A stretch of DNA of 64,000 bases, taken from the NCBI GenBank assembly GCA_028825475.1, contig JAPKAB010000005.1, positions 1 through 64,000 on the forward strand. Reading direction: 5' to 3'. The translations under genes were made by a program, and so were the position numbers. Origin of the DNA: Ascidiaceihabitans sp. (GTDB lineage Bacteria; Pseudomonadota; Alphaproteobacteria; Rhodobacterales; Rhodobacteraceae). Positions within the stretch are counted from its first letter, which is position 1. Each line of letters begins with the position of its first letter. Shown piece by piece: positions 14,735 to 29,815 of the stretch. The notes under the pieces are model-generated. The model ran no database searches. It was not told the DNA's origin and saw only the letters and a program-made list of their open reading frames with translations.

Positions 14735-16260
14735 GCGTCTGGCCCTCTTAATTTGAAACGTTGAATTTTACCGGTTGCCGTCTTTGGCAACTCATCGACG
14801 CACTCGATCCAGCGCGGGTATTTCCATTTACCGATCTTATCTTTGACGTGTTCTTTTAATATCTCTGCCAACCCGTCGTCATTCACACCCTCATTCAGGA
14901 CAACAAACGCCTTGGGCTTTTCCAATCCTTCGGGATCACGGGCCGCCACCACTGCAGCCTCAAGAATAGCGGGGTGTGCGATCAAGGCAGACTCAACCTC
15001 AAACGGAGAGACCCAAATGCCAGACACTTTGAACATATCATCGGTGCGACCACAGTAGACATACCGCCCGTCCGGGCGCTGTTCATATTTGTCGCCCGTG
15101 TGTGTCCAGACGCCTGCAAATGTCGCGCGTGTCTTTTCCCGTTGGTTCCAATAGCCGCTGGCCGCAGAGGCACCATTCACAACCAATTCGCCCACTTCGC
15201 CGCGTGGCACATCATTGCCCACATCATCCACAAGTCGCATTTCATAGCCCGGTACAGCCGTGCCGGAGGTGCCGTAAACAACATCATCGTCCGCGTTGCT
15301 TAAAAAGATGTGCAGCATCTCGGTTGAGCCGACACCGTCTAAAATATCCACGTTCATCATCTTGGCCCAGCGTTGCCCAATATCTTCGGGCAATGCCTCC
15401 CCCGCTGAAATGCAGCGGTGCAATGAGGCATTGGCCGCGCCGTTGGCATCCATGTAAGCCAGCATCGCCGCATATAGCGTAGGTACCCCGCAAAAAACGG
15501 TTGGGGATTGTGTGTTCAGGATATCAACCACAACATCAGGGGTTGGTCGCCCAGCAAACAGAACCGCCGTGGCACCGACCGACATTGGGAAACTCATCTC
15601 ATTGCCCAAGCCATAGGCGAAGAAAAACTTGGCCGCTGAATAGACGACATCGTCCTCTTTGATCTTCAAGACATGCGCACCGTAGGTATCAGCTGTTGCC
15701 TGCATACTGGAATGAATGTGGTGCACACCTTTGGGTAGGCCTGTTGAACCGGATGAGTACAGCCAAAACGCGGTTTCGTCATCGCTGGCTTCAACCGCCG
15801 CACATGGTTTCGCACCTGTTGTGAAGGCTTCAATGGACGTTGTTCCGGCGGGCGCGTCACCGACCACCACGACCTGGCGCAAGTAGGGGTTGTCGGCCAG
15901 GACAGGCTTCACCGTCGCGTATAACGCGTCCGAAATGAACAGGATGGATGCACGGCTGTCACGCAAAATCGCGTCATAAACAGGAGCGGCCAAAAGGGTG
16001 TTAAGCGGGACAGGAACCACGCCTGCTTTGATCGCACCCCAAAAGATTTGAGGGAATTCGATACAGTCTAAAACCAACATCGCAGCGCGTTCTTCGCGCG
16101 TGATCCTCGCTTGAGCAAATGCACCAGCAATCTTGTCAGAGGTGGCCGCCAACATGCCATAGCTTAGCGCACGTCCATTTGGATATTCGCGAAAGGCAAC
16201 CTTGTCCCCGCGTCCTTCGTGTACGTGGCGATCTACAAAGTAGAGTGCTGCGTTGGCCAT
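14731..16260 (-). CDS. benzoate-CoA ligase
   Basis: A 509-residue adenylate-forming enzyme of the benzoate-CoA ligase family that activates benzoate to benzoyl-CoA with ATP and CoA. Core motifs are YSSGSTGLPKGVHH (P-loop A3), the HTGDKYEQRPDGRYVYCGRTDDMFKVSG hinge and the C-terminal PKTATGKIQR with the catalytic Lys. The ATG at 16260 has GGGAGGGG upstream. It is the first catabolic gene after the TRAP transporter and precedes the box genes, consistent with the first step of the pathway. Other benzoate analogues cannot be excluded as substrates. Confidence 0.92.
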   Translation of the reverse strand: MANAALYFVDRHVHEGRGDKVAFREYPNGRALSYGMLAATSDKIAGAFAQARITREERAAMLVLDCIEFPQIFWGAIKAGVVPVPLNTLLAAPVYDAILRDSRASILFISDALYATVKPVLADNPYLRQVVVVGDAPAGTTSIEAFTTGAKPCAAVEASDDETAFWLYSSGSTGLPKGVHHIHSSMQATADTYGAHVLKIKEDDVVYSAAKFFFAYGLGNEMSFPMSVGATAVLFAGRPTPDVVVDILNTQSPTVFCGVPTLYAAMLAYMDANGAANASLHRCISAGEALPEDIGQRWAKMMNVDILDGVGSTEMLHIFLSNADDDVVYGTSGTAVPGYEMRLVDDVGNDVPRGEVGELVVNGASAASGYWNQREKTRATFAGVWTHTGDKYEQRPDGRYVYCGRTDDMFKVSGIWVSPFEVESALIAHPAILEAAVVAARDPEGLEKPKAFVVLNEGVNDDGLAEILKEHVKDKIGKWKYPRWIECVDELPKTATGKIQRFKLRGPDA

Positions 16261-16334
16261 TATCCCCTCCCAAGGCAATGCATTGACTGTACCCTGCACC
16301 ATGCGCGCAGTAGCGCAACTTTGACCCTTAGGTT

Positions 16335-16349
16335 GTGCAGTTTACTGCA
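16335..16349 (-). promoter_or_regulatory. candidate BoxR operator upstream of the benzoate-CoA ligase gene
   Basis: The plus strand reads GTGCAGTTTACTGCA, holding the near-palindrome TGCAGT-tt-ACTGCA. Further TGCA copies occur nearby within the 105-bp gap (16261-16365) between dctM and the ligase gene. It shares 12 of 15 positions with the site upstream of boxC. Confidence 0.5.
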
Positions 16350-16365
16350 TCAACTTGTCGCACCT

Positions 16366-17718
16366 TTAGGGGATAAGGAACAGTGTGATTGCAGGGAAAG
16401 CGACCAAAATCGCAACCCGCACAATGTCTGATCCAACAAAGAACATGACCGCTTTGTAGGTCTCTGTAATCTTGGTTTCGCGGTCCATGGCATTGATGAT
16501 GAATAGGTTCATTCCAACGGGCGGCGTAATCAGCCCCACCTCAACCACAATCAGAACCAAGATACCAAACCAGATCGCAACGTGTTCTGGGCTAAGGCCG
16601 AAGTCCATCGCCGAGATGACGGGAAAGAAGATCGGGACCGTCAGCAGGATCATGGACAGGCTGTCCATCACACATCCAAAGACCAAGTAGAATGTCAGGA
16701 TGATGATCAATACAAACCAAGGGCTAAACCCTTGGGCCAACACATAGTCGGCCATAATTTGCGGCACACCAGAAAGCGCAAGGAAGCCATTATAAAAACT
16801 AGCACCCAACACGATGAAAAAGATCATCGCAGTGGTTTTGCCCGTTTCCAATAGCGCGATTTTGAAGACTGGCCATTTTAGGTTTCCAGACAGCATGGCA
16901 ACAATACCCGTGCCCGCCGCACCAATCGCAGCCCCTTCAGTAGGCGTGAACCAACCTGCATAAATACCACCTACAACCAGGCCAAAAATCATGAGAACCG
17001 GCCATGTGTTTCCCAGTGCCTTCCAGCGTTCGGCCATCGGTACAGCAGGACGTGTGCCCGCAGAATTCGGATAAAGCCGGACATAAAGTGAGATGGTGAG
17101 TACGTAGCCAATTGCGGCAAGGATGCCGGGAATAAACGCCGCCAAAAACAGTTTGGCGATGTTTTGCTCAGTAATGATCGCATAAAGGACAAGGATCACT
17201 GAGGGCGGAATGAGGATGCCAAGCGTCCCACCAGCCGCCAATGTGGCCGTGGAAAACCCACCGGAATAGCCATAGCGGCGCAATTCTGGCAGTGCGACTT
17301 TGCCCATGGTGGCAGCCGTAGCCAAAGACGATCCACAGATCGCACCAAAACCGGCACATGCACCCACAGCCGCCATCGCAACACCGCCGCGGCGATGCCC
17401 AAGGAAGCTTTCGGCGGCTTTGAACAGGGCTGTGGACATGCCAGACAAGGTTGCGAATTGCCCCATCAAAAGGAACAGCGGAATGATCGTCAGCGAATAG
17501 CTGGAGAAGGTTGTATAGGTTTCAGACTTTAGCTTGGCCAACAACGGAACAGGATTGCCGTTCATCGCAAAGTACCATCCGCCAAAACCACACAACAGCA
17601 TCGCCAATCCGATAGGTGCGCGCAGAAAGATAAAGAACAACAGAACCGCAAAAGACCAAAAGCCCAGTTCAAGTCGCGACATGTCTGCAAATGGCAGAAG
17701 ATCAAGGAAGGCGGTCAT
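16366..17718 (-). CDS. TRAP transporter large permease (DctM family)
   Basis: A 450-residue inner-membrane protein with about 12-13 hydrophobic segments and DctM signatures such as GFGAICGSSLATAATMGKVALPELRRYGY, GTLGILIPPSVILVLYAIITEQNI and VEVGLITPPVGMNLFIIN. It forms the sodium-driven translocation unit with the DctQ protein. It is encoded 11 nt after dctQ and just before the benzoate-CoA ligase gene, so the transporter probably imports benzoate or a related aromatic acid (inference from context). Confidence 0.94.
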   Translation of the reverse strand: MTAFLDLLPFADMSRLELGFWSFAVLLFFIFLRAPIGLAMLLCGFGGWYFAMNGNPVPLLAKLKSETYTTFSSYSLTIIPLFLLMGQFATLSGMSTALFKAAESFLGHRRGGVAMAAVGACAGFGAICGSSLATAATMGKVALPELRRYGYSGGFSTATLAAGGTLGILIPPSVILVLYAIITEQNIAKLFLAAFIPGILAAIGYVLTISLYVRLYPNSAGTRPAVPMAERWKALGNTWPVLMIFGLVVGGIYAGWFTPTEGAAIGAAGTGIVAMLSGNLKWPVFKIALLETGKTTAMIFFIVLGASFYNGFLALSGVPQIMADYVLAQGFSPWFVLIIILTFYLVFGCVMDSLSMILLTVPIFFPVISAMDFGLSPEHVAIWFGILVLIVVEVGLITPPVGMNLFIINAMDRETKITETYKAVMFFVGSDIVRVAILVAFPAITLFLIP

Positions 17719-17729
17719 ACTGTGACCCT

Positions 17730-18299
17730 TTATTTTTCAGGAAGAATTGCGCGGCCTGTTGCCGCCTCACCCACACGCATGATTGCGCAGTAGGCCGCGA
17801 TAATGCAGGCAACGGAGGCAGCCGTGAAACTGGCAGCATAGGACCACCACAGTGGCATCTGTAGAAACAGCGTTGTTTCCCCGTTGCCAATGTAGCGCTG
17901 CATGCCCTCATACAAACGCCAAGTGATGAAGATGATTGTCACGCTCAGAACCACCTCCCAGAAGGCGCGCAAAATGCGCAGCGCCTTGGGGGACATGCCC
18001 GATGTGAAAACATCAACAGTCGCGTGTTCGTTATAAAGCTGACAGATCGGAAAGAACGAGAAAATGGCAAAAGCCACCCCTGCCTCAAGCAGTTCATAGT
18101 TGCCGTTGATTTCACCAACGCCCAGATCAATGATCCACTGCGAGAGGGATCCAAAACTCGACATCGCAAAGTCTGAATGAAACATTTTGCTGAGCGTGCG
18201 GCCGATGATGGACAACGTGGTCATTGCGACCAAAACCATCAGGACGAACCCACCAAGAATGGCTGTCACACGGGCCAGCCATATAATGAAACGGTGCAT
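17730..18299 (-). CDS. TRAP transporter small permease (DctQ family)
   Basis: A 189-residue protein with four predicted membrane helices, including LARVTAILGGFVLMVLVAMTTLSII at the N-terminus. The ATG at 18299 is chosen because GGCAGGAAT lies just upstream; a 10-residue extension has no such site. It is the partner of the large permease and lies downstream of the binding-protein gene, separated by a strong hairpin with a T-run. Confidence 0.9.
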   Translation of the reverse strand: MHRFIIWLARVTAILGGFVLMVLVAMTTLSIIGRTLSKMFHSDFAMSSFGSLSQWIIDLGVGEINGNYELLEAGVAFAIFSFFPICQLYNEHATVDVFTSGMSPKALRILRAFWEVVLSVTIIFITWRLYEGMQRYIGNGETTLFLQMPLWWSYAASFTAASVACIIAAYCAIMRVGEAATGRAILPEK

Positions 18300-18326
18300 A
18301 CCATTCCTGCCTTTTAATATTAGTAC

Positions 18327-18360
18327 CAAAAACTGCGGCGCATCAAATGTGCGCCGCAGT
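18327..18360 (-). terminator. intrinsic hairpin between dctP and dctQ
   Basis: Perfect 11-bp stem (plus strand 18332-18342 ACTGCGGCGCA with 18350-18360 TGCGCCGCAGT) and a 7-nt loop. On the minus strand it is followed by TTTTT. It probably works as a partial terminator or mRNA stabiliser that keeps the binding protein in excess of the permeases. Confidence 0.8.
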
Positions 18361-18376
18361 CAAATTCAAAACCCGA

Positions 18377-19420
18377 TTAGTTCGAGTGTTTTTCGATCAA
18401 AGCACGTGCCTCGTCGATCAAAGCCTGACCATCGATACCCTTGCTTTCCATGTCAGCAACCCAACCCGCGTAGATTGGTTCTGCTGCTGCTTTCCATGCA
18501 TCAATATCGGCACCGGACACAGTAACAATGTTGTTGCCACGATCCACGGCCAATTGACGGGCTGGGCCATCAGCTGCTTCTTGGGTTGTACCCGCGAATA
18601 CAGAGAATTCCATACCTGAATTGTCATCAATTATCTTTTGCAAATCTGCAGGCAAGCTTTCAAAGCGTGGTTTATTCATCGCCAGAACGAATGTCAGCGT
18701 ATAAAGGGACACGCCATCAAATTCTGTGTGGTTTGAAACCAGTTCTGGAACCTTCAGCGCAGCTGTAACTTCCCACGGAATTGTAGTTCCGTCGATTACA
18801 CCTTTTGAAAGGGCTTCAGGAACTGCAGGAACTGGCATCCCAACTGGCGTTGCACTTAGCTCTTCAAGGAAGCTGTTGACCAAACGGGAACCGCCACGAA
18901 TTTTCAGGCCTTCCATATCGCTAGGTGATTTAACTTCTTTGTTCGTGTGCAACATGCCTGGTCCGTGAACCCAAGTGCCCAGAATTTTGAGATCTTTGAA
19001 TTCACCGTCTTTCATGTGTGTTTCAAACATATCCCAAAGCGCGTGGCTTGCAGGGCCTGCACCGGATTCTGTCATCATAAATGGCAGCTCAAAAACTTCA
19101 GTCGTTGGGTAACGACCAGGTGTATACCCCACAACGGTCCAGACAATGTCTGCCACGCCGTCAATCGCTTGGTCCATCAACTCTGGAGGACGGCCGCCCA
19201 ATTGCATACCAGGGTAGCGATCAATTTTGATGCGACCACCGGAGTCAGCTTCGACTTTGTCGGCCCAAACATCCAAAATTTGTACAGGAACGTTGGCTTG
19301 TGCTGGCAGGAATTGGTGAAGTGACAATGTCACCTCTTGCGCACTTGCAGGTGCACCGATGCCCATTGCCATCGCAGCAGCACCAGCCATGCCTAGAAAT
19401 GATTTACGTGTCAGTGTCAT
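18377..19420 (-). CDS. TRAP transporter substrate-binding protein (DctP family)
   Basis: A 347-residue periplasmic protein. A signal peptide (MTLTRKSFLGMAGAAAMAMGIGAPASA, cleavage near residue 27) precedes a DctP domain with LHQFLPAQANVPVQILDVWADKVEADSGGRI and a carboxylate-binding region around KIRGGSRLVNSFLEELSATPVGMP, where the conserved Arg binds the organic-acid ligand. As first gene of the dctP-dctQ-dctM-ligase series it likely captures benzoate or a similar aromatic acid. Confidence 0.93.
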   Translation of the reverse strand: MTLTRKSFLGMAGAAAMAMGIGAPASAQEVTLSLHQFLPAQANVPVQILDVWADKVEADSGGRIKIDRYPGMQLGGRPPELMDQAIDGVADIVWTVVGYTPGRYPTTEVFELPFMMTESGAGPASHALWDMFETHMKDGEFKDLKILGTWVHGPGMLHTNKEVKSPSDMEGLKIRGGSRLVNSFLEELSATPVGMPVPAVPEALSKGVIDGTTIPWEVTAALKVPELVSNHTEFDGVSLYTLTFVLAMNKPRFESLPADLQKIIDDNSGMEFSVFAGTTQEAADGPARQLAVDRGNNIVTVSGADIDAWKAAAEPIYAGWVADMESKGIDGQALIDEARALIEKHSN

Positions 19421-19602
19421 AATTTATTCTCCCTTATTCGCCGCACTAATTTAGCTGCGCGACTCAATGATATGGAAATTGTTAGGTCAGATCGTGGGCA
19501 CTGTCACCTCTTTGTATTTTATCGCGATAACTGCTTTTTTCGCCGAATACGTTTGACAGTTACAATCAGCGCTTGTTTGGCTGCACCTAACGGAGCAGCG
19601 AA

Positions 19603-20871
19603 ATGGGTGGCCAATCTATGAAACATGTACTTATTGCAGGAGCTGGGATCGTTGGGGTTTCATCTGCCATCTGGCTCCAACGCGCTGGATGTCGCGTGAC
19701 CATAGTAGATCGCGCAGGCCCAGCCAGCGGAACAAGTCATGGCAACGCAGGTGTCTTGGCCGCAGGTGCCGTTGTCCCCGTAACGGTGCCCGGATTAATG
19801 CGCAAAGCACCTTCAATGTTGTTCACGCCCTCGTCGCCCCTTTTTTTGCGGTGGTCCTATTTGCCTAAACTATTGCCGTTCTTGGCAAAATACATGTCCT
19901 ACGCCAACGACAAGCATGTGGATCACTATGCTAAATCCATGTCCAGCTTACTGCACGACTCGGTCGATCAACATCACGCATTGGCAAAGGGAACAGGGGC
20001 TGAAGGTTTCGTTACTGAGGAAGATTATTGTTTTGGCTATCAAACACATGCTGCATTTGAAGCGGATGGATACGGTTGGTCCAAGCGCCAAGATCAGAAC
20101 GTTCCTTACAAAGTAGTAAGCGGAACAGAGTACGCAAAGTATGATCCGCTGTACGACGGGCAATTTGAAACTGTCGTTCGGTGCAAATCCCATGGCCGTA
20201 TTTCGGACCCCGGTGCATACGTCAAAGCGCTGGCTGATCATTTCGTGCAGCAAGGCGGTGAACTGGTCATCACCAACATCACTGACGTTCAGATGGACGG
20301 TGATCAAATCGCTGCCTTGGTCACTGATGACGGTCTGATGTCTGCCGATACCGTACTGCTAGCAATGGGCCCGTGGTCAAAAAGGGTTGCGCACAAATTA
20401 GGCATTAAAGTGCCATTTGAGTCGGAGCGCGGGTATCACATCGAACTCATGAACCCCTCTCAGATGCCCCGCGCGCCCATGATGGTGGCGTCTGGAAAAT
20501 TTGTTATCACCCCAATGCAGGGGCGAATTCGCGCGGCGGGCGTCATCGAATTTGGCGGGCTGGATGCACCAGCCAGCCGTGCACCATTGGATTTATTGCG
20601 CACTCAAGTCGCTAATTTATTACCTGAAGTTGAATATGATGACGTTGTCGAATGGATGGGCCACCGCCCAGCGCCTGCGGATTCTCTGCCTTTAATCGGG
20701 GCCAACGACGCATCGGGAAAAAGCTATAGCGCATTCGGGCATCAGCACGTTGGCTTGACAGGTGGTCCTAAAACGGGTCGGATCATCGCAGATCTGATTA
20801 CTCAGAAAAAGCCGAACATAGATTTGGCACCATTTGATCCAACTAAATACGATTCAAAAAACGGCCAATAA
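19603..20871 (+). CDS. FAD-dependent D-amino acid dehydrogenase-like oxidoreductase
   Basis: A 422-residue DadA-type flavoprotein of the DAO family. The N-terminal FAD motif is LIAGAGIVGVSSAIWLQRAGCRVTIVDR, followed by a GTSHGNAGVLA segment and, near the C-terminus, RPAPADSLPLIG and the GHQHVGLTGGPKTGR motif. Such enzymes oxidise D-amino acids or N-alkyl amino acids to imines and pass electrons to the respiratory chain. GGAG lies upstream of the ATG at 19603; the ATG at 19618 is an alternative. The neighbouring TRAP transporter, racemase and RidA fit an amino-acid catabolic unit. Confidence 0.88.
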   Translation: MGGQSMKHVLIAGAGIVGVSSAIWLQRAGCRVTIVDRAGPASGTSHGNAGVLAAGAVVPVTVPGLMRKAPSMLFTPSSPLFLRWSYLPKLLPFLAKYMSYANDKHVDHYAKSMSSLLHDSVDQHHALAKGTGAEGFVTEEDYCFGYQTHAAFEADGYGWSKRQDQNVPYKVVSGTEYAKYDPLYDGQFETVVRCKSHGRISDPGAYVKALADHFVQQGGELVITNITDVQMDGDQIAALVTDDGLMSADTVLLAMGPWSKRVAHKLGIKVPFESERGYHIELMNPSQMPRAPMMVASGKFVITPMQGRIRAAGVIEFGGLDAPASRAPLDLLRTQVANLLPEVEYDDVVEWMGHRPAPADSLPLIGANDASGKSYSAFGHQHVGLTGGPKTGRIIADLITQKKPNIDLAPFDPTKYDSKNGQ

Positions 20872-20899
20872 TAGGCTGTACCAACTAGGGAGATTACCA

Positions 20900-21874
20900 A
20901 TGAAAACGATGACAACACTTGCATGCACGGTGGCCATGACGGCTGGTGCAGCATTCGCAGACGGACACGCGCAAAATTGGGACATGCCGATGGCGTATTC
21001 CGCGACAAACTTTCACTCAGAACAAGGTGTGATGTTTGCTGAGCGCGTCAAAGAATATACCAACGGCGCTATCAACATCACTGTTCACCCAGGCGGTTCA
21101 CTGTTTGGCGGCGGCGATATCAAGCGCGCTGTTCAAACCGGTCAGGTTCCAATTGGCGAACGCTTTATGTCTGCACACGCAAATGAAGCCCCTCTTTTGG
21201 GCTGGGATAACCTGCCGTTCTTAGCAACCACATATGCGGACAACTCCAAACTATGGGAAGCGGCACGCGACACTGTGAACGCACAATTGGCCGACCTAAA
21301 CTTGGTCGCGCTCTATACGTGCCCATGGCCTGGTCAGGGTTTCTATTTCAACAAAGAAGTAAATTCCTCTGCTGATACCCAAGGCATCAAGTTCCGTTCA
21401 TACAACTCTGCCACTGCTACCTTTGCCGAAGAATTGGGCATGATCCCAGTACAGGTTGAAGCCGCTGAATTGTCCCAAGCCTTGGCAACGGGTGTTGCCT
21501 CTGCCTTCATCTCTTCAGGTTCCACAGGTTATGACCGCAAAGTTTGGGAGCACCTAAGCCACTACTACAAAGTGAACGCATGGTTGCCACGCAACTACGT
21601 CATCGTGAACTCACAATCGTGGGACGCCTTGGATGACGCAACACGCGCAGGCATGCAAAAAGCAGCAGACGAAACTGGTGCTGCTTGTGCTGCTAAGTCA
21701 GAAGAATTGGCTGATTTCTACTTCGCTGAACTGGCTAAAAACGGCATGACTGTTGAAGATGCTGGCCCTGATTTCTTGGCCGAGCTGAAAGCAATCGGTG
21801 AGAAAATGACTGCTGAGTGGCTGGAAACAGCTGGCGCAGACGGACAAGCAATTATCGACGCTTACAACAACTAA
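20900..21874 (+). CDS. TRAP transporter substrate-binding protein (DctP family), second system
   Basis: A 324-residue periplasmic protein with a signal peptide (MKTMTTLACTVAMTAGAAFA) and a DctP domain: NFHSEQGVMFAERVKEYTNGAINITVHPGGSLFGGGDIKRAVQTGQV at the front and KFRSYNSATATFAEELGMIPVQVEAAELSQALATG in the ligand-binding region. The ATG at 20900 is preceded by GGGAGA; an in-frame upstream extension into the previous gene is rejected. It begins 28 nt after the dehydrogenase gene and is followed by a terminator-like hairpin. Confidence 0.92.
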   Translation: MKTMTTLACTVAMTAGAAFADGHAQNWDMPMAYSATNFHSEQGVMFAERVKEYTNGAINITVHPGGSLFGGGDIKRAVQTGQVPIGERFMSAHANEAPLLGWDNLPFLATTYADNSKLWEAARDTVNAQLADLNLVALYTCPWPGQGFYFNKEVNSSADTQGIKFRSYNSATATFAEELGMIPVQVEAAELSQALATGVASAFISSGSTGYDRKVWEHLSHYYKVNAWLPRNYVIVNSQSWDALDDATRAGMQKAADETGAACAAKSEELADFYFAELAKNGMTVEDAGPDFLAELKAIGEKMTAEWLETAGADGQAIIDAYNN

Positions 21875-21889
21875 TCTTTACGCTGATCT

Positions 21890-21931
21890 GACCAGCCCCT
21901 GCGTTCGCATAGGGGCTGGTCTTTCTTATTT
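21890..21931 (+). terminator. intrinsic hairpin between dctP and dctQ of the second TRAP system
   Basis: Perfect 11-bp stem GACCAGCCCCT / AGGGGCTGGTC (21890-21900 and 21911-21921) with a 10-nt loop, followed by the T-rich tail TTTCTTATTT. It separates the binding-protein gene from the permease genes. Confidence 0.8.
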
Positions 21932-21945
21932 AGGGACTGAGAAAT

Positions 21946-22659
21946 ATGCGCGATTGGTCACCCGTTTTGGGAATGCCGCTGTGGGTTTGGCTGTTTGTTA
22001 TGCCCACGCTGTTTGGAGTTGTCTGTCTGTTTTATGGCAACCAGATTGAGGGGTTCTTGCGTCCGATCTGGCGCTTTCTTGATAAGGTCTATGTGGCTGG
22101 TGGTGTTCTGGCTGCGTGCTTTATGGTGACAATTCTGGGCTTGATCGTTGCAGGTATGATCGCGCGGTGGATCAGCGTCCCGCTACCCGGCACAACCGAA
22201 TTTGCAGGCTACGCGATGGCTGCCACGTCTTTCTTTGCAATGGCCCACGCCTTGACCCGCGGCGCACATATCCGCGTTTCGATTATTTTGAACATGAACC
22301 GCTTTCTAAATCGCTGGCTGGATGCCTTTGCCGTTCTTGGCGCGGCAATCATTGCGACCTATTTCGCCCGCTACGCGATCAAGACGACCGTCTTTTCCGA
22401 AATGCTGAACGACCGCACCCAAGGTCAGGATCAGATCCCTGCGTGGGTTGATGCAGGTCTGCGTTTGATTGGCAGCAGCCCTTCAGATTGGGGCACCGTT
22501 TGGTCCAAAGCCTCATCCGAGCTGATTTACACACCCGTTTGGATCCCCCAGCTGGCCATGTGTATTGGCACAGTTTTGTTGGCTGTCGCCCTTTGGGACA
22601 CCCTGTACCGGATGCTTGTTACTGGTGTGAACCCAATCGTATCGGAGGCAGTAGAATGA
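21946..22659 (+). CDS. TRAP transporter small permease (DctQ family), second system
   Basis: A 237-residue membrane protein, longer than typical small permeases because of an N-terminal helix (PLWVWLFVMPTLFGVVCLFYG) and a hydrophilic loop around residues 155-185. The core DctQ helices include VYVAGGVLAACFMVTILGLIVAGMIARWI. Its stop codon overlaps the dctM start by 4 nt (ATGA), indicating translational coupling. Confidence 0.88.
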   Translation: MRDWSPVLGMPLWVWLFVMPTLFGVVCLFYGNQIEGFLRPIWRFLDKVYVAGGVLAACFMVTILGLIVAGMIARWISVPLPGTTEFAGYAMAATSFFAMAHALTRGAHIRVSIILNMNRFLNRWLDAFAVLGAAIIATYFARYAIKTTVFSEMLNDRTQGQDQIPAWVDAGLRLIGSSPSDWGTVWSKASSELIYTPVWIPQLAMCIGTVLLAVALWDTLYRMLVTGVNPIVSEAVE

Positions 22660-23966
22660 CCGAGCTTTATGCGACACTGATCTTCCTGTTCGTTTTATTC
22701 ACCCTGCTTGGCAGTTCCATTTGGATCGGCCTTGCCTTGATGGGCGTTGCCTTTGTTGGGATGGAGTTGTTCACCACGCGCCCTGCTGGCGATGCGATGA
22801 TCACTACCATTTGGACCAGCTCTAGCAGCTGGACCCTCACAGCCCTGCCCCTGTTCATTTGGATGGGCGAGATCCTCTATCGAACGCGACTGTCCCAAGA
22901 CATGTTTCGCGGCCTTGCCCCTTGGATGCGCTGGTTGCCCGGTGGCTTGCTGCACACCAACATCGCGGGCTGTACTATTTTTGCGGCGGTATCTGGTTCA
23001 TCCGCTGCGACGCTCACAACCGTTGGCAAGATGTCGATCCCAGAACTGCGCAAGCGAGGTTATCCTGAATACATGATCGTTGGCACCCTCGCCGGTGCTG
23101 CGACCCTTGGCCTGATGATCCCACCGTCATTAACGCTGATCGTCTACGGTGTTTCGATCAACGAGAGCATCATTAAGCTGTTCATGGCCGGCATCTTTCC
23201 GGGCTTGGTATTGGCTGCATTGTTCATGTCCTACATCGTTGCATGGCACTACATCCGCCCTCACGAGCGTCCAGAACCTGAGCCACCCATGTCCTTTGGA
23301 ACAATGCTGGCAGAAAGTCGGTTCTTGATACCCGTGCTTTGCTTGGTCTTTGCCGTCATCGGTTCAATGTATTTTGGTTGGGCCACCGCGACGGAAGCGG
23401 CGGCTGTCGGCGTCATTGGTGCGCTTACCCTTGCAAGCTTTCAACGGTCCCTAACGTGGGAAGCCTTTCGCGAAAGCCTGATGGGCGCAACGCGCACCTC
23501 AGCCATGATCGCACTGATCTTAATGGGGGCTGCGTTCTTGTCCCTGTCTATGGGGTTCACTGGCTTGCCACGCGCATTGGCGGCATGGATTGATCAGATG
23601 AACCTATCGCCGATCACGCTGATCGCTGCACTGACGGTGTTCTATATCATCCTTGGCATGTTCCTTGATGGGATTTCATCCGTGGTGCTGACTATGGCAA
23701 TCGTTGAACCGATGATCCGCCAAGCAGGCATTGACGTCATCTGGTTTGGTATCTTCATCGTTGTCGTGGTTGAGATGGCACAAGTTACCCCCCCAATCGG
23801 TTTCAACCTTTTCGTTTTGCAGGGCATGACCAAACACGAGATTTCATACATTTCCAAAGTGGCCCTCCCAATGGTTGGCCTAATGCTTTTGATGGTTGTG
23901 ATCTTGGTCGTGTTCCCAGAACTCGCGACGTGGCTGCCAAACAATCTGCGCCAAGGGCCGTCATAG
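22656..23966 (+). CDS. TRAP transporter large permease (DctM family), second system
   Basis: A 436-residue inner-membrane protein with DctM signatures: IFAAVSGSSAATLTTVGKMSIPELRKRGYPE, ATLGLMIPPSLTLIVYGVSINESIIKLFMAGI and EMAQVTPPIGFNLFVLQGM. The start overlapping the dctQ stop is chosen over a 56-residue upstream extension, which would be a shadow of dctQ. Followed by the racemase-family gene after 8 nt, within the same apparent operon. Confidence 0.94.
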   Translation: MTELYATLIFLFVLFTLLGSSIWIGLALMGVAFVGMELFTTRPAGDAMITTIWTSSSSWTLTALPLFIWMGEILYRTRLSQDMFRGLAPWMRWLPGGLLHTNIAGCTIFAAVSGSSAATLTTVGKMSIPELRKRGYPEYMIVGTLAGAATLGLMIPPSLTLIVYGVSINESIIKLFMAGIFPGLVLAALFMSYIVAWHYIRPHERPEPEPPMSFGTMLAESRFLIPVLCLVFAVIGSMYFGWATATEAAAVGVIGALTLASFQRSLTWEAFRESLMGATRTSAMIALILMGAAFLSLSMGFTGLPRALAAWIDQMNLSPITLIAALTVFYIILGMFLDGISSVVLTMAIVEPMIRQAGIDVIWFGIFIVVVVEMAQVTPPIGFNLFVLQGMTKHEISYISKVALPMVGLMLLMVVILVVFPELATWLPNNLRQGPS

Positions 23967-23974
23967 GTTAGGCC

Positions 23975-24640
23975 ATGCGCCCCTCTGTCACCGTTCTACA
24001 GCTAGATACCCATTTCCCGCGCGTTGCGGGGGATGTTGGGGCGCCAGCCACCTATCTGAATGAGGTAGAGATCATTCGCGTCACAGGCACGTCAGTCGCA
24101 GGGATTGTGACGGGCGATCCTGCATCGATTGATGTGGCACCTTTTGAGACTGCGCTAAAGGCTGCCAAGGGTGATGTCGTTGTCACATCTTGCGGGTTCC
24201 TAAGTTATTGGCAAAACCACCTAGAGGGCCAAATTCAACGCCCCTTTATCAGCTCGTCTTTGACCGCATTGGACCGGTTGGCGGATCACGACATCGACGC
24301 GCTGTCGATCCTAACCTTTGATGCTGCAAAACTGGGTGTAGCGCATTTGGGAAACAACGCACGCTTTATGCCATCGATCATTGGCCTAGATCCAAACGCG
24401 CACCTACGTGCGGTGATTGGTGGTAATAGGACAGAATTAGACATTGATCGTGCGGCGCGCGAAACCATCGAAACAGTTCGGGCTGCAACGACAAGCCAAC
24501 TTGAAACATTGCTGTTGGAATGCACCAATTTACCCCCATACAAAGGCGCATTGCGCCGCGCCTTTGATGTAGAGATTATCGATATACTGACCCAGATTGA
24601 GCGCGTAAGGCCCCGCACAATCCAGCCCGATTTTCTTTAG
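23975..24640 (+). CDS. aspartate/glutamate racemase family protein
   Basis: A 221-residue protein of the Asp/Glu/hydantoin racemase superfamily. The two catalytic cysteines expected for cofactor-independent racemases are visible in VVTSCGFLSY (about residue 73) and LLECTNLPPY (about residue 188). It follows the TRAP dctM gene by 8 nt. With the DadA-like dehydrogenase upstream it could convert an L-amino acid to its D-form for oxidation. Its 3' end overlaps the convergent ridA gene by 4 nt. Confidence 0.82.
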   Translation: MRPSVTVLQLDTHFPRVAGDVGAPATYLNEVEIIRVTGTSVAGIVTGDPASIDVAPFETALKAAKGDVVVTSCGFLSYWQNHLEGQIQRPFISSSLTALDRLADHDIDALSILTFDAAKLGVAHLGNNARFMPSIIGLDPNAHLRAVIGGNRTELDIDRAARETIETVRAATTSQLETLLLECTNLPPYKGALRRAFDVEIIDILTQIERVRPRTIQPDFL

Positions 24641-24981
24641 TAAGCAGCCGTTACCAGAATTTCGACCTTCAGGCCTTTGCGCGCCAGCTTTGCTTCGCCG
24701 CACGCACGTGCAGGGGCATGACCCTCTGGAACCCAAGCGTTCCAAACGCCGTTCATATCAGCGAAGTACCCCATGTCGGACAACCAAACGGTCACCTGCA
24801 ATAGCTGTTTGTTAGAGCTGCCCGCTTCTGCCAATAGCGCGTCGATCTTATCCAGACATTGTTGCGTCTGGTCCTGAATGCTGTCGTCAGATGTGCCCAC
24901 CTGACCGGACAAGTAAACGGTTCCGTTGTGCTTAACGATTTTGCTGGCGCGTTCGCCGGTGTGCATACGTTCAATGGTCAT
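24637..24981 (-). CDS. RidA family protein
   Basis: A 114-residue member of the RidA/YjgF/YER057c family, which hydrolyses reactive enamine/imine intermediates to keto acids and ammonia. The fold signature is visible: HNGTVYLSGQVG near the N-terminus, DKIDALLAEAGSSNKQLLQVTVWLSDM in the middle, and APARACGEAKLARKGLKVEILVTA with the conserved Arg and Glu at the C-terminus. It lies on the opposite strand but next to the DadA-like/racemase operon, whose products would be imines. Confidence 0.92.
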   Translation of the reverse strand: MTIERMHTGERASKIVKHNGTVYLSGQVGTSDDSIQDQTQQCLDKIDALLAEAGSSNKQLLQVTVWLSDMGYFADMNGVWNAWVPEGHAPARACGEAKLARKGLKVEILVTAAY

Positions 24982-25056
24982 GACATTTCCCTTTTGTAAG
25001 TGTTGCCCAACTCATAGATCCTAAGATGCATGCGCACCAGACCTGTGGAGATGACG

Positions 25057-25443
25057 TTACGCGGTGCCCTCACCGTCAAGTTCTGCCAACGTCGCCTTGG
25101 CCAGTTTGATCGCGTGGTTTGCCTTTGGCACACCTGCGTAAACAGCCACATGCATGAAGGCCTGCAAAATATCATCGGGGGACGCACCGGTATTCTTACA
25201 GGCCCGCACATGCATCGGGATTTCTTCGAAATTTCCAGTCGCAGCCAACAACGCCAATGTCAGCATCGAACGTTCACGACGGGTGATTGTATCATCAGCC
25301 CACAAAGTGCCCCATGCCCCTTCGGTGATCATGGATTGAAACGGTTGGTCAAAGGGCGTCTTGGCCGCCTCTGCACGATCAACATGTGCGTCGCCCAACA
25401 CTTCGCGGCGCACGGCCATCCCTTGATCCAAACGGTTCGTCAT
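25057..25443 (-). CDS. carboxymuconolactone decarboxylase family protein
   Basis: A 128-residue protein of the PcaC type: RREVLGDAHVDRAEAAKTPFDQPFQSMITEGAWGTLWADDTITRRERSMLTLALLAA followed by the EEIPMHVRACKNTGASPDDILQAFMH motif with the catalytic-type Glu and His. This matches 4-carboxymuconolactone decarboxylase of the protocatechuate branch, but no other pca genes are in the window, so a role in the neighbouring cluster is also possible. The start at 25443 has GGAG upstream; a longer in-frame extension is rejected. It is 75 nt upstream of ridA on the same strand. Confidence 0.82.
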   Translation of the reverse strand: MTNRLDQGMAVRREVLGDAHVDRAEAAKTPFDQPFQSMITEGAWGTLWADDTITRRERSMLTLALLAATGNFEEIPMHVRACKNTGASPDDILQAFMHVAVYAGVPKANHAIKLAKATLAELDGEGTA

Positions 25444-25710
25444 TATGTTCTCCAAGTTTAGCAGCCCGCGATGGGCATTTGCAGAACATAGTTTACAGAC
25501 AACGCCCTGTGCGCAAGTGGAATGCTGGAAAACAGTGAGTTCCCCTTGTCGGATGTTTGGATCGCCTGTGAGTTTGGGTCTGCCGAAACCTTTCGCAGAG
25601 GATTCCACAAAGTTGGGAATGCGGTCAGAAAAACCACTGATCCACGTCGCAAACTGACAACCCGTCCTGTGAAAACTACGCAAAGCTATAGGGATTGGAG
25701 GAGTGTCGAA

Positions 25711-27051
25711 ATGAACCAACATCACAGCACCATCCGCAAAATCGACCCATCACGCGGTGCAACCCTGGGCGATGGTTCCCCCAACGATCAAGACCGGATC
25801 GAAATTGGCCCCACCCAACTTGCCATGCGCGAATGGGAGGCAGCGGGTCTGACCCTGCCCAATCTTGCGAATATGCGCAGCTATCGCCATGCGCGATTGA
25901 CGCAACATATTGTCGATCGGGGCTATGGCGGTCTTTTGATGTTTGACCCGCTAAACATCCGGTACGCGACCGACTCAACCAACATGCAGCTATGGAACAC
26001 GCACAACCCATTCCGCGCTGTGTTGCTGTGCGCAGATGGGTACATGGTAATCTGGGATTACAAAAACTCCCCCTTCCTCAGCACGTTTAATCCGCTGGTT
26101 GCTGAACAACGATCTGGTGCTGATCTGTTTTACTTCGACCGTGGAGATAAGGTAGATGTTGCCGCCGATGTCTTTGCCAATGAGGTGCGCGCGCTGTTGC
26201 AAGAACACGCACCCAACCATTCAAAACTGGCTGTCGACAAGATCATGTTGCACGGGTTGAACGCGCTTCAGACCCAAGGGTTCGAGATAATGGACGGCGA
26301 AGAGGTCACCGAAAAATCGCGTTCCATCAAAGGCCCCGATGAAATCCTAGCAATGCGCTGCGCCTCGCATGCTTGTGAAACCAGCGTCAAAGTAATGGAG
26401 GATTTTGCCCGTGCCAACGTAGGGGATGGGAAGACGTCAGAAGACGATGTTTGGTCGATCTTGCACGCCGAAAACATCCGACGCGGTGGAGAATGGATAG
26501 AGACACGCCTGCTCACGTCTGGCCAGCGCACCAACCCGTGGTTCCAAGAATGCGGACCACGGATTACGCAAAGCAACGAGATCATCTGCTTTGACACCGA
26601 CCTTGTTGGATCATACGGAATCTGCGTTGATATCTCGCGCAGTTGGTGGATTGGGGATCAAAAACCACCCTCTGAAATGATCTATGCGATGCAACATTCC
26701 CATGAACACATCATGACCAACATGGAGATGTTAAAGCCGGGCGTCATGATCCCCGAACTAACCGCGAATTCCCATCGATTGGATGACAAGTATCAGGCCC
26801 AAAAATACGGATGTCTGATGCACGGTGTTGGCATGTGTGATGAATGGCCCTTGGTTGCCTATCCGGATCAGGCTGTGGCTGGCGCGTTCGACTATCCGCT
26901 TGAGGCGGGCATGGTGCTGTGCGTCGAGGCAGCAGTGGGCGAAGTTGGCGGTGCCTTTACCATCAAATTGGAAGATCAGGTTTTGATCACCGACGATGGA
27001 TATGAAAACCTAACCAAGTATCCATTTGACCCCGCCTTGATGGGGTTATGA
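25711..27051 (+). CDS. dddP: DMSP lyase DddP
   Basis: A 446-residue M24-peptidase-fold protein that cleaves dimethylsulfoniopropionate to dimethyl sulfide and acrylate. Length equals the characterised DddP enzymes, and the N-terminal IDPSRGATLGDGSPND and DPLNIRYATDSTNMQLW blocks are DddP hallmarks. Metal ligands known for DddP fall at the expected positions: D295, D297, D307, H371, E406 and E421, with the catalytic D377 in HGVGMCDEWP. GGAGGAG sits upstream of the ATG at 25711; a 63-residue upstream extension is rejected. It is monocistronic and adjacent to pseudogenes. Confidence 0.95.
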   Translation: MNQHHSTIRKIDPSRGATLGDGSPNDQDRIEIGPTQLAMREWEAAGLTLPNLANMRSYRHARLTQHIVDRGYGGLLMFDPLNIRYATDSTNMQLWNTHNPFRAVLLCADGYMVIWDYKNSPFLSTFNPLVAEQRSGADLFYFDRGDKVDVAADVFANEVRALLQEHAPNHSKLAVDKIMLHGLNALQTQGFEIMDGEEVTEKSRSIKGPDEILAMRCASHACETSVKVMEDFARANVGDGKTSEDDVWSILHAENIRRGGEWIETRLLTSGQRTNPWFQECGPRITQSNEIICFDTDLVGSYGICVDISRSWWIGDQKPPSEMIYAMQHSHEHIMTNMEMLKPGVMIPELTANSHRLDDKYQAQKYGCLMHGVGMCDEWPLVAYPDQAVAGAFDYPLEAGMVLCVEAAVGEVGGAFTIKLEDQVLITDDGYENLTKYPFDPALMGL

Positions 27052-27052
27052 T

Positions 27053-27880
27053 CCCCTGCACCCAAACGTTAACCCTGCAACGCGTTTCCACAACATCAAG
27101 GATGCGATAGGTGAGATCCGTATTCCGAATGTCATAGGCTTCAACACTCTGGTTTGGGTCCTCGCCTAGACGTGTTGCACCGCTGGGTCTGTTGGCCGCC
27201 GAATACTTGCCCGTCAGCCACCCACCGCCAAGTGGCGACCAATGGGACAACGAGATGTTGTTTTCCAAACAACAGGGCAGAACCTCGGCCTCTATCCCAC
27301 TTTCCAAAAGATTGTATTGCGGCTGCATGGCCACAGGCATCGCAAAGTATTCAGCCTGAGCAGTCGACACTATTTTTTGCACCTGTCAGCCACTTACGTT
27401 GGGCCATCCGATATTGTGAATCTTGCCGGCTTTGACCAAATCAATGAGCGTGGCCAAGGTTTCCAAGATTGGGTTATGGCGATCCCACCCATGGACGAAA
27501 TAAACATCTATCACATCTTGTCCAAGACGTTTCAAACTCCCCTTCAACAGCACGTGTTAGACCGCGCCTTGACGCCCTATGGCTGCCTTTGGCGGGTGAA
27601 AACCGTCCTTTGGTTGCTATCGCCAAGTCATCCAAACCACCGCGTGCTTTGCCCCACTTGCCGATCATCTGTTCAGAGGCACCCGCGCTGTACAAATCCA
27701 ATGTTTCGATGAAGGTTCCGCACCGACAGGCAAACAAATCCAATTGCGTAAATGCGCCTTGTTCATCTGTTTTGCGCCAAATGTCATGGTCCCCAACGCC
27801 AGCCGCCAAACGGTTGGTTCGCCATGTCCTAGGCGTGCTTGAGGCATCGATACGCGGAAAAATGGAACGTGCTAAATCTG
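27053..27880 (-). pseudogene. broken aldo/keto reductase gene
   Basis: Pieces of one aldo/keto reductase are read in order on the minus strand but in changing frames: LALGTMTFG (near 27800), then GTFIETLDLYSAGASEQMIGKW, then LGQDVIDVYFVHGWD and LIDLVKAGKIHNIGWPNVSG, then PQYNLLESGIEAEVLP and SPLGGGWLTGKY. At least two frameshifts are needed, plus a TGA (27386-27388) at the position of the Trp in the conserved SGWQ motif. The C-terminal quarter is missing and homology stops at the 3' end of dddP. Confidence 0.88.
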
Positions 27881-27926
27881 GCATTCTACGGCTAGAAGAG
27901 CCACCCCAACAAATCGGCCGCCCATT

Positions 27927-28467
27927 GTGAAGGTATCAGCGGGCACTTGGACAACGATGGCCCTGCTTGCCCGAATAGATGATCTGTCAGCTGAACCCGC
28001 AGATGTTCGGTTTCGTTTCGCAGAGGCGTTATTGGATATTGCACAGCGTAAAGTTGTCATTGGCATTCGAAACGCCCCCCACCAATACAGCCCTTGCAGG
28101 CCGCAAACTCACACGGATCGAATTCGCGCCCGACGCGACCGATCCCGATACCAAAGGCTGGATCAAAGTGGCGGCCCAAACCGCCTCTGCACGTTGGGTC
28201 AGCAAAACAATCGGTAACGATGCCCATTGCGAAGTCAGCGCCCCCCGCCACAGCCTTGATCTGGCGCTTGCTGGAAAAGGCATTGCCGTGCTTCCAACAT
28301 TCATTGGAGACGCACAACCAACGCTGCAGCGCGTTAGTGAAACGATACCAGAATTGACCCACGATCAATGGATCGTCACACATTCAAATGATCAGCATTG
28401 TCCCCGAATCCCGACCGGATGTGCACTGTATTGCAGTCATGAGGGGCTGAAGCACACGTTTGATTAA
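27927..28467 (+). pseudogene. broken LysR-type regulator gene
   Basis: Only the effector-binding half of a LysR regulator remains. VSAGTWTTMALLARIDDLSAEPADVRFRFAEALLDIAQRKVVIGIRN is read in one frame; after a C6 tract (28075-28080) the reading continues in another frame as TALAGRKLTRIEFAPD and LDLALAGKGIAVLPTFIGDAQP to the stop. The DNA-binding N-terminus (about 90 residues) is absent. Divergent from the broken aldo/keto reductase, it looks like a decayed regulator-target pair. Confidence 0.85.
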
Positions 28468-28490
28468 CGACGCGAGGCAGTGCGTCGCAT

Positions 28491-28524
28491 AAAAAAAACC
28501 GCGCCTCGAAGGGCGCGGCTTTTA
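28491..28524 (-). terminator. intrinsic terminator of tauABC
   Basis: On the minus strand CCGCGCC-cttcga-GGCGCGG is followed by TTTTTTTT. It lies 22 nt beyond the tauC stop codon. Confidence 0.88.
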
Positions 28525-28546
28525 ATTTCAGTCAAAGACTAGCTGA

Positions 28547-29815
28547 TTAGCTTTTGCCCTTCCATGGGACCAAGATTTTCTCAGCCCAACGCATCAGCAG
28601 ATCGATCCCAAAACCAATCACACCAATCATGATGATACCCATCACAACGATGTCCGTTTGTTGGAACTTAGCCGCGACCATAATCATCATGCCTGCGCCT
28701 TGGGATGCCGCAACCAATTCGGCCGCAACAACGGTACCCCAGCAAACACCCATAGCAACACGTGCACCGGTAAAGATCTCAGGCAGTGAGTTAGGGATAA
28801 TTACGTGGCGCATGATCTGTGGTTTGCTTGCACCCAACGAGTAGGCAGCGTGCACCTTAGCGATGTTCACACCAGACACACCGGAACGAGAAGCGATTGC
28901 CATGATCCAAAGAGCCGCTAGGAACAACAAGATGATCTTACCTGTTTCACCAATACCAAACCAAATGATGATCAGTGGGATCAAAGCAAGTGGTGGCACA
29001 GGGCGCATGAATTCAACGATCGGATCGAACCAACCACGGAACCAGTTGCTCAAGCCCATCGCATATCCAAGTGGGATACCGATGATCGCACCAAAGAGGA
29101 AACCAACAACAACGCGGAACAATGAGTAACCCACGTGCTCCCAAAGTGAGAAGTTGCGGTAGCCTTCGTTCGCGATCTCAAGTGTACGGGCCCAAACCTT
29201 TTCAGGAGGAGGCAAGTACAACGGGGCCATCTGCCAACCTGTCTTTGCCTTAAAGTTAGGTGTGCCTTTGTCGGTCAACGTCACAGAACCACCATCAACG
29301 ACAACGGTTGAACGCGCGACAACTGGTTCACCATTGATCGCAACGACCTTGGCACCATCTGCTTTTTTCGCGTCATCATTGCCTTGGACAACAATAACCT
29401 TCGTGCCCCACTTGTTCACAATCGCCGTGTCATTTTTGGCGAAACCGTCGCCGGCCTCTACCTCTGGCTTAACCGCGTCTTCACCTTGTGGACGGACCAA
29501 AACGGTAACTGTCGCATCGTCTTGTTCGCCAGCTGCATTTTCAACAGTGTAGTTAAAGGTCGTCGTGCCTTCAAACGGGCCAGGCATGTGCAAAAAGCTT
29601 GGGATCAAAGCAGAGCCCGTAAAGGTTGCCCACATGAAGAAGATAGATAGTACCGAAATGATCGATGCCGCACGGTTAGGGCGCACAGCACTTTCGTCAC
29701 CAAAGGTCACTGTCTTTAGGGATGTATAATCTTTGGTACCACGGCCTTCAGAAACCATACGAACCACGAAAAACGCTGCAACAAAAATGGCAACGTAAAG
29801 AATGAGAGGGATCAT
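28547..29815 (-). CDS. tauC: taurine ABC transporter permease TauC with extra periplasmic domain
   Basis: A 422-residue permease. The C-terminal part (about 200-422) is a normal SsuC/TauC-type BPD_transp_1 domain with the EAA-like loop HAAYSLGASKPQIMRHVIIPNSLPEIFTGARVAMG. In front of it, two hydrophobic segments (about 1-20 and 50-66) flank or precede a soluble acidic, beta-rich insert of roughly 115 residues (about 80-195), starting FNYTVENAAGEQDD, that the 275-residue E. coli TauC lacks. The start overlaps the tauB stop by 4 nt. Its substrate is inferred to be taurine from the tpa-xsc context. Confidence 0.9.
   Translation of the reverse strand: MIPLILYVAIFVAAFFVVRMVSEGRGTKDYTSLKTVTFGDESAVRPNRAASIISVLSIFFMWATFTGSALIPSFLHMPGPFEGTTTFNYTVENAAGEQDDATVTVLVRPQGEDAVKPEVEAGDGFAKNDTAIVNKWGTKVIVVQGNDDAKKADGAKVVAINGEPVVARSTVVVDGGSVTLTDKGTPNFKAKTGWQMAPLYLPPPEKVWARTLEIANEGYRNFSLWEHVGYSLFRVVVGFLFGAIIGIPLGYAMGLSNWFRGWFDPIVEFMRPVPPLALIPLIIIWFGIGETGKIILLFLAALWIMAIASRSGVSGVNIAKVHAAYSLGASKPQIMRHVIIPNSLPEIFTGARVAMGVCWGTVVAAELVAASQGAGMMIMVAAKFQQTDIVVMGIIMIGVIGFGIDLLMRWAEKILVPWKGKS

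Follow-up and report, generated by a model that had tools for sequence, protein, structure and literature searches.

Binding proteins for pyroglutamate (5-oxoproline) that serve tripartite ATP-independent periplasmic (TRAP) transporters are already known, as is the 5-oxoprolinase PxpABC. According to the available excerpt of a review of TRAP transporters, pyroglutamic acid was the ligand in crystals of two Bordetella DctP proteins (PMC5812351). The accessible part of a 2026 paper on Corynebacterium glutamicum gives DctP7 a dissociation constant (KD) of 0.3 uM for pyroglutamate and places a 5-oxoprolinase gene nearby (PMC13274462). In these excerpts, the accounts of DctP6 and DctP7 concern the binding proteins and a neighbouring gene for a 5-oxoprolinase of the eukaryotic type, and mention neither a racemase nor a dehydrogenase (PMC5812351, PMC13274462). 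The C. glutamicum system itself, pxpTABC, couples 5-oxoproline uptake to PxpABC, as we propose here for a different locus; its transporter, however, belongs to the APC superfamily and not to the TRAP type, and the word racemase is absent from the accessible part of the paper (PMC13274462). Here, we analysed an operon in a 64,000-nucleotide stretch of DNA from Ascidiaceihabitans sp. (contig JAPKAB010000005.1; hereafter the window), in which genes for a DadA-like flavin adenine dinucleotide (FAD) dehydrogenase, a TRAP transporter (dctPQM) and a protein of the Asp/Glu/hydantoin racemase family follow one another on the forward strand. On balance, we judge it fairly probable that this operon is a pyroglutamate scavenging locus, in which TRAP uptake, racemase and dehydrogenase are directed at one compound.

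An earlier note on this DNA had assigned the dehydrogenase gene, dctPQM and the racemase-family gene to a single operon, overlapped by a convergent ridA. We verified this gene order (Table 1): coordinates and strands agree, and the intergenic distances from the dehydrogenase gene through dctP, dctQ and dctM to the racemase gene are 28, 71, -4 and 8 bp, and thus compatible with a single operon. The ridA gene, on the opposite strand, overlaps the racemase gene by 4 bp.

Substrate of the transporter

The substrate is best indicated by the relatives of DctP. When the mature protein was compared with the PDB by phmmer, three entries stood apart (6wgm, E 2.7e-164; 2pfz, 1.2e-75; 2pfy, 5.1e-62), the next match being at 1.7e-17. 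An AlphaFold2 model built from 20 aligned sequences (mean predicted local distance difference test score, pLDDT, 87.5) matched 6wgm with a Z of 45.4, a root-mean-square deviation of 1.2 and 78% identity; the Z values for the three pyroglutamate-binding entries were 43-45, against 36 for the next structure. The entry title of 6wgm describes a TRAP binding protein from a marine metagenome that is "specific for pyroglutamate", and the titles of 2pfy and 2pfz, both from B. pertussis, describe pyroglutamate-binding receptors. In sequence, fold and TRAP type, the window's DctP matches the DctP6/DctP7/6WGM subfamily, which is distinct from other TRAP binding proteins. Because DctP groups with the solved pyroglutamate binders far above all others, the window's DctPQM very probably takes up pyroglutamate, a prediction that is well supported by homology. 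The earlier note had proposed an unknown amino acid as the substrate. The relatives of DctP allow a candidate to be named, and it is not a free amino acid; as an amino-acid derivative, pyroglutamate does agree with that note's expectation that the DctP ligand would be related to amino acids.

Conservation of the gene set

We surveyed 295 genomes of the window's family, representing 294 genera; 149 of them had a DctP match with an E of 1e-40 or lower. Among the matches listed, those with at least 48% identity (88 hits in 87 genomes) were called type A. The 62 hits that ranked next, spread over 61 genomes, were called type B, the top one of these (in genome G160) being a truncated type A. A racemase match was present in 89 of the 295 genomes: 80 of the 87 with type-A DctP versus 9 of the 208 others (Fisher 7e-53, genomes treated as independent). 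In 64 of the 87, the racemase and type-A DctP genes were no more than 10 kb apart; near type-B DctP genes, none of the 102 racemase hits was found within 15 kb. The dehydrogenase was matched at E 1e-80 or better in 118 of the 295 genomes. In 77 of the 88 genomes with type-A DctP (G160 included), it lay within 3 kb of the DctP gene, and no dehydrogenase gene was found near a true type-B DctP in the family survey. The dehydrogenase also accompanied the type-A TRAP genes in six of the eight loci that have no racemase near.

In other families of the class, we chose 20 loci by hand from the upper part of the 92 DctP-positive genomes among 385. Of these loci, 13 had the racemase and 10 the dehydrogenase; a frame for a eukaryotic-type 5-oxoprolinase was present in two, and pxpC and RidA were found in none of the 20. 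The earlier note had suggested examining whether the gene set is conserved, and the combination of dehydrogenase, dctPQM and racemase is indeed kept across genera and families. Since the type-A transporter occurs in 87 of the 295 family genomes, nearly all of them of different genera, a racemase-dehydrogenase branch would be widespread in this family.

A longer arrangement was seen on a plasmid of Ruegeria sp. THAF33 (L096, 2295-12770), where the annotated order runs racemase, GntR, thiamine pyrophosphate (TPP) enzyme, LysR, enolase-like protein and FAD oxidoreductase, after which come a TRAP binding protein and then two permeases. This racemase-GntR-TPP-enolase-FAD oxidoreductase-TRAP module is found, whole or in part, in 13 other fetched loci.

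RidA is not part of the conserved set. The window's RidA-family protein scores 92.3 bits against PF01042 (cut-off 27.3) and 66.4 bits against TIGR00004 (cut-off 106.25), and the RidA-family protein PA5083 is among its nearest solved relatives. Of 65 loci searched, only the window and four near relatives (L031-L034) have ridA beside the operon; it is missing from all TRAP-bearing loci outside the window's clade in this set, and the one further match, a weak one (E 3e-4), is in a locus without TRAP genes. As it is confined to five loci of the window's own clade, we rejected RidA as a core member, a role that the earlier note had given it as the last step of the pathway. In the window's clade, hydrolysis of an imine made by the dehydrogenase may fall to the adjacent RidA. 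The dguABC system for D-glutamate catabolism in Pseudomonas pairs an FAD D-amino acid dehydrogenase with a Rid protein and is not known to include a TRAP transporter or a racemase. The window resembles it in the dehydrogenase and Rid protein, but differs in that its RidA is clade-specific and in that it has both a TRAP transporter and a racemase.

Linkage to 5-oxoprolinase genes

We found that pxpC lies within 10 kb of type-A DctP in at least 12 of the 87 genomes, in 10 of these at 4.4-4.7 kb; if chance linkage is roughly set at 1% per genome, the probability of this many linked genomes is about 1e-10. The linked genes are ordered dadA-like, dctP, dctQ, dctM, a BASS-like membrane protein gene, pxpB, pxpC and pxpA, and this order recurs in seven fetched loci from several genera. 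The BASS-like protein was named by eye and had no Pfam or NCBIfam match, and our scheme leaves its role unexplained. In three genomes, a dadA-like gene forms an operon with pxpB, pxpC and pxpA (L103, 6283-10063; L104, 5933-9762; L105, 5213-8972), with no TRAP gene alongside within the 14.6-17 kb fetched; in two of these, the first three genes overlap successively by 4 bp. That such operons exist without TRAP genes ties the dehydrogenase itself to 5-oxoproline. In L103, we also noted by eye a nitrilase-like frame at a distance of 3.4 kb from the dadA-like gene.

The window's genome carries an intact pxpBCA, in three frames, on another contig (L101, contig C71), so that the pxp genes are unlinked to the uptake operon. 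These genes adjoin one for an AlkZ-like DNA glycosylase and one for a LacI-type regulator, and counterparts of both (at 62-67% and 79-83% identity, respectively) are found close to a full racemase-dehydrogenase-TRAP-pxpBCA cluster in representatives of three further genera (L045, L047 and L052). The common flanks suggest that the TRAP/racemase part and pxpBCA were formerly adjacent. The flanked pxpBCA region appears to be a chromosomal site that includes the TRAP/racemase part in some genomes and lacks it in others, and in L104, too, pxpBCA is near AlkZ-like and LacI-type genes, as judged by eye.

Type-B DctP proteins form a sister clade and differ from type A at residues that are invariant in the latter, such as R88, F150, Y211 and R231. 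Their genes also have 5-oxoprolinase neighbours. In the 11 type-B genomes that were covered by PF02538 searches made for other reasons, a long frame of the 5-oxoprolinase type (PF02538) lay within 4 kb in eight, and pxpC about 2 kb away in one more. Twelve fetched type-B loci held pxpC in three cases, the long frame in eight, and a racemase or dehydrogenase in none; seven of the 12 had been chosen after the adjacency was visible, and four of the remaining five hold pxpC or the long frame. We therefore take the 11-genome count as the fairer one. On annotated plasmids of Azospirillum, Leisingera and Acidovorax, DctP relatives are paired with pxp or hydantoinase/oxoprolinase genes; a Thermus record has no such genes within 9 kb of its DctP relative. 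Together, the gene context supports the view that the dehydrogenase, the racemase and 5-oxoprolinase serve one metabolic field.

Two further lines were set aside. The presence of a 5-oxoprolinase in every cluster-bearing genome was dropped as evidence, since controls were nearly identical: a long PF02538 frame was present in all 14 type-A genomes without pxpC (829 to 1396 codons) and in 14 of 15 controls lacking pxpC (958 to 1412 codons), six of the 15 controls carrying type-B DctP. A route through D-glutamate cyclase (PF07286), from D-5-oxoproline to D-glutamate, was likewise rejected as an explanation of the gene set. A search of the window's genome (94.8% complete) for PF07286 gave no match with an E of 1e-10 or lower; the family is present in 25 of the 87 type-A genomes versus 33 of the 208 others (Fisher 0.016), and the route may contribute elsewhere. 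In seven genomes from several genera, a PF07286 gene lies 4.2-5.3 kb from pxpC, which hints at a bacterial link from D-glutamate to 5-oxo-D-proline.

The racemase-family protein and the DadA-like dehydrogenase

Against PF01177, the racemase-family protein scored 27.9 bits (E 2.5e-6), below the curated cut-off of 31, and against the unnamed NCBIfam model PRK07475 it scored 121 bits, below the cut-off of 231. A phmmer search of solved structures at E 0.1 returned no relative, and a contig scan of genomes with the racemase alone gave four near relatives. Two cysteines, C73 (in TSCGF) and C183 (in ECTN), are shared by all 23 relatives compared, even at identities as low as 27%, and the structural model (pLDDT 96.6) places known racemases at Z 11-14; the protein thus has both the fold and the two cysteines of PF01177. 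Given the invariant cysteines and the modelled racemase fold, it is likely a two-base racemase.

The fold does not reveal the substrate. The VIA Z values were 14.1-14.4 for allantoin racemases, 13.6 for aspartate racemase, 13.3 for hydantoin racemase and fungal OpaE, and 13.1 for glutamate racemase, all lying within about 1 of one another. We rejected the allantoin-type fold as proof of substrate: VIA gives a tie with aspartate racemase, and Foldseek reverses the order. Allantoin and hydantoin racemases have two cysteines and act on five-membered cyclic amides. They share the PF01177 fold with the window's protein at 12-16% identity to it, although aspartate/glutamate racemases fit it about equally well or better. 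Because the family holds racemases of cyclic amides and a pyroglutamate transporter is encoded next door, 5-oxoproline is, by analogy, our best guess at the substrate.

The dehydrogenase reached 193 bits against the NCBIfam DadA model PRK00711, far below the cut-off of 383, and we therefore call it DadA-like and not an established DadA orthologue; its identity to E. coli DadA is 24%. Glycines G8, G10 and G13 of the FAD motif and arginine R305 are invariant in 13 of 13 aligned sequences. R305, which we take to be the carboxylate-binding arginine of the carboxylate site, is common to this protein and E. coli DadA, and in an alignment with the latter the motifs ESERGYH and GHQHxGLTGGPKTG appeared as features of the cluster sequences. 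Elsewhere in the window's genome (L102, 4758-9792; contig C35), a hydantoinase A/B-like pair is followed by an oxidoreductase frame that by eye resembles the D-amino acid oxidase (DAO) family, and a similar-looking frame comes after dctM in L087 (12939-14123).

A model for pyroglutamate use and its alternatives

We propose that DctPQM would import pyroglutamate and that the two-cysteine PF01177-type protein would interconvert L- and D-5-oxoproline, much like the allantoin and hydantoin racemases. L-5-oxoproline would be opened to L-glutamate by the ATP-dependent PxpABC, encoded elsewhere in the genome, and the DadA-like FAD enzyme would remove either D-5-oxoproline, giving 2-oxoglutaramate, or D-glutamate derived from D-5-oxoproline. 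This assignment of the dehydrogenase to the D side is the least certain part of the scheme; oxidation of the lactam, which would yield the ring form of 2-oxoglutaramate, is chemically bold. The order of import, racemisation and oxidation set out in the earlier note is possible, with the 5-oxoprolinase pxpBCA, which lay outside that note's view, belonging in the picture.

In the open-licence literature, we found no description that pairs a pyroglutamate transporter with either type of enzyme, racemase or D-amino-acid dehydrogenase, and no pyroglutamate racemase or dehydrogenase was named among the matches listed. For the racemase-family, DadA-like and TRAP proteins, so far named only loosely, the scheme would provide a named candidate substrate, and the locus may let the cell use both enantiomers of pyroglutamate. 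Humans excrete 5-oxo-D-proline, according to the accessible part of one paper (PMC5339696).

Several observations weigh against the proposed pyroglutamate scheme. Both enzyme activities, of the racemase and of the dehydrogenase, are predictions. Foldseek ranks aspartate/glutamate racemases first, with allantoin racemase at rank 40, and the VIA lead of allantoin over aspartate racemase is less than 1, hence a tie. The racemase is not within 10 kb in 23 of the 87 type-A genomes, some of these on short contigs, and no dehydrogenase lies within 3 kb in 11 of the 88. Of the 118 dehydrogenase-bearing genomes, 39 have no type-A DctP, which indicates that the dehydrogenase family is wider than the pyroglutamate system. 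In the class sample, a TPP enzyme accompanies 9 of the 20 loci and an enolase-superfamily protein 4, and the scheme leaves both unexplained. No recurrent omega-amidase was seen beside the clusters in neighbourhood clustering, which was judged by eye, with no profile search. Finally, we know of no precedent for flavin oxidation of a lactam.

The same components could also form an ATP-free oxidative route, which we regard as rather unlikely: the racemase would supply D-5-oxoproline, and the flavoenzyme would convert it to a cyclic imine, whose hydration would give 2-oxoglutaramate and finally 2-oxoglutarate, with the TPP enzyme continuing the route in relatives. In that case both enzymes would, to our knowledge, be without precedent, as no racemase or flavin dehydrogenase is known to act on pyroglutamate.

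In an alternative that we consider unlikely, the racemase would convert imported D-pyroglutamate to the L form for PxpABC, and the DadA-like enzyme would be a dehydrogenase of D-glutamate or another D-amino acid, with no direct action on pyroglutamate. DAO-family enzymes normally use free amino acids, R305 is kept in common with E. coli DadA, and pxpBCA, intact in the window's genome, comes after the operon in several genera, all of which would suit such a division of labour. However, the transporter is more tightly associated with the dehydrogenase than with the racemase, the dehydrogenase occurs in operons with pxpBCA that have no racemase beside them, and the window's genome yielded no PF07286 ring-opening D-glutamate cyclase at the threshold given above.

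It is quite improbable that, as the earlier note envisaged, the operon takes up a free L-amino acid, converts it to the D form, oxidises this to an imine and, through RidA hydrolysis, ends at a keto acid. On this reading, the pyroglutamate in the crystals would be a surrogate or contaminant. The sequence of gene functions fits this pathway, and the TPP enzyme of relatives could process the keto acid; against it stand three related binding proteins described with pyroglutamate, one with submicromolar affinity in the excerpt cited above (KD 0.3 uM), the recurrent linkage to 5-oxoprolinase and the lack of conservation of RidA. Still less probable is a pyroglutamate-like cyclic acid, for example hydroxylated or N-substituted, as the substrate, with the racemase-GntR-TPP-enolase-dehydrogenase module as its pathway and the window holding a reduced form: the TPP enzyme and enolase-superfamily protein do occur around the same DctP type, and both are on the Ruegeria plasmid, but the window's DctP is 78% identical to a protein titled as pyroglutamate-specific.

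Features of the locus and its surroundings

Table 1. Coordinates of the features at the proposed pyroglutamate locus, numbered from the first nucleotide of the window.
Feature	Position	Strand	Remarks
DadA-like FAD dehydrogenase (DAO superfamily)	19603-20871	+	PF01266, 169.5 bits (cut-off 27.9); second ATG at 19618
DctP, TRAP solute-binding protein, pyroglutamate-binding subfamily	20900-21874	+	PF03480
Hairpin between dctP and dctQ, 12-bp stem and T-rich tail	21890-21921	+	
DctQ, small TRAP permease subunit	21946-22659	+	PF04290
DctM, large TRAP permease subunit	22656-23966	+	PF06808; TIGR00786, 372 bits (cut-off 268)
Asp/Glu/hydantoin-racemase-family protein, proposed 5-oxoproline racemase	23975-24640	+	PF01177, below cut-off
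RidA-family protein	24637-24981	-	PF01042; 4-bp overlap with racemase gene
PcaC-like carboxymuconolactone decarboxylase family protein	25057-25443	-	not counted in the system

The segment that contains the hairpin between dctP and dctQ (21872-21945) folds with a z of -3.71, and none of 200 shuffles folded equally well; the hairpin probably lowers dctQM expression relative to dctP. Over 19400-25720, we counted eight terminator-like sites against a shuffle mean of 6.9, which is no excess, and promoter-like sites were likewise not in excess over shuffles. An Rfam scan of 14000-30000 returned nothing at the gathering score.

The interval given in the earlier note, which ends at 25443, also takes in the PcaC-like gene, which that note did not mention. 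This gene adjoins the operon in L031, L032 and L034, and not in L033. Beyond it lies a gene for the dimethylsulfoniopropionate (DMSP) lyase DddP at 25711-27051 on the forward strand (NCBIfam NF043017, 888.7 bits, cut-off 600), a separate function; dddP is beside the operon in L031 and L032 as well, and not in L033 or L034. On the other side, at 14731-19420 on the reverse strand, a second, divergent TRAP system (dctPQM) lies with a gene for an enzyme of the benzoate-CoA-ligase family (TIGR02262, 725.9 bits, cut-off 375). The second TRAP genes adjoin the pyroglutamate operon in all four near relatives, L031-L034, and the benzoate-CoA-ligase-family gene is present in L031 and L032.

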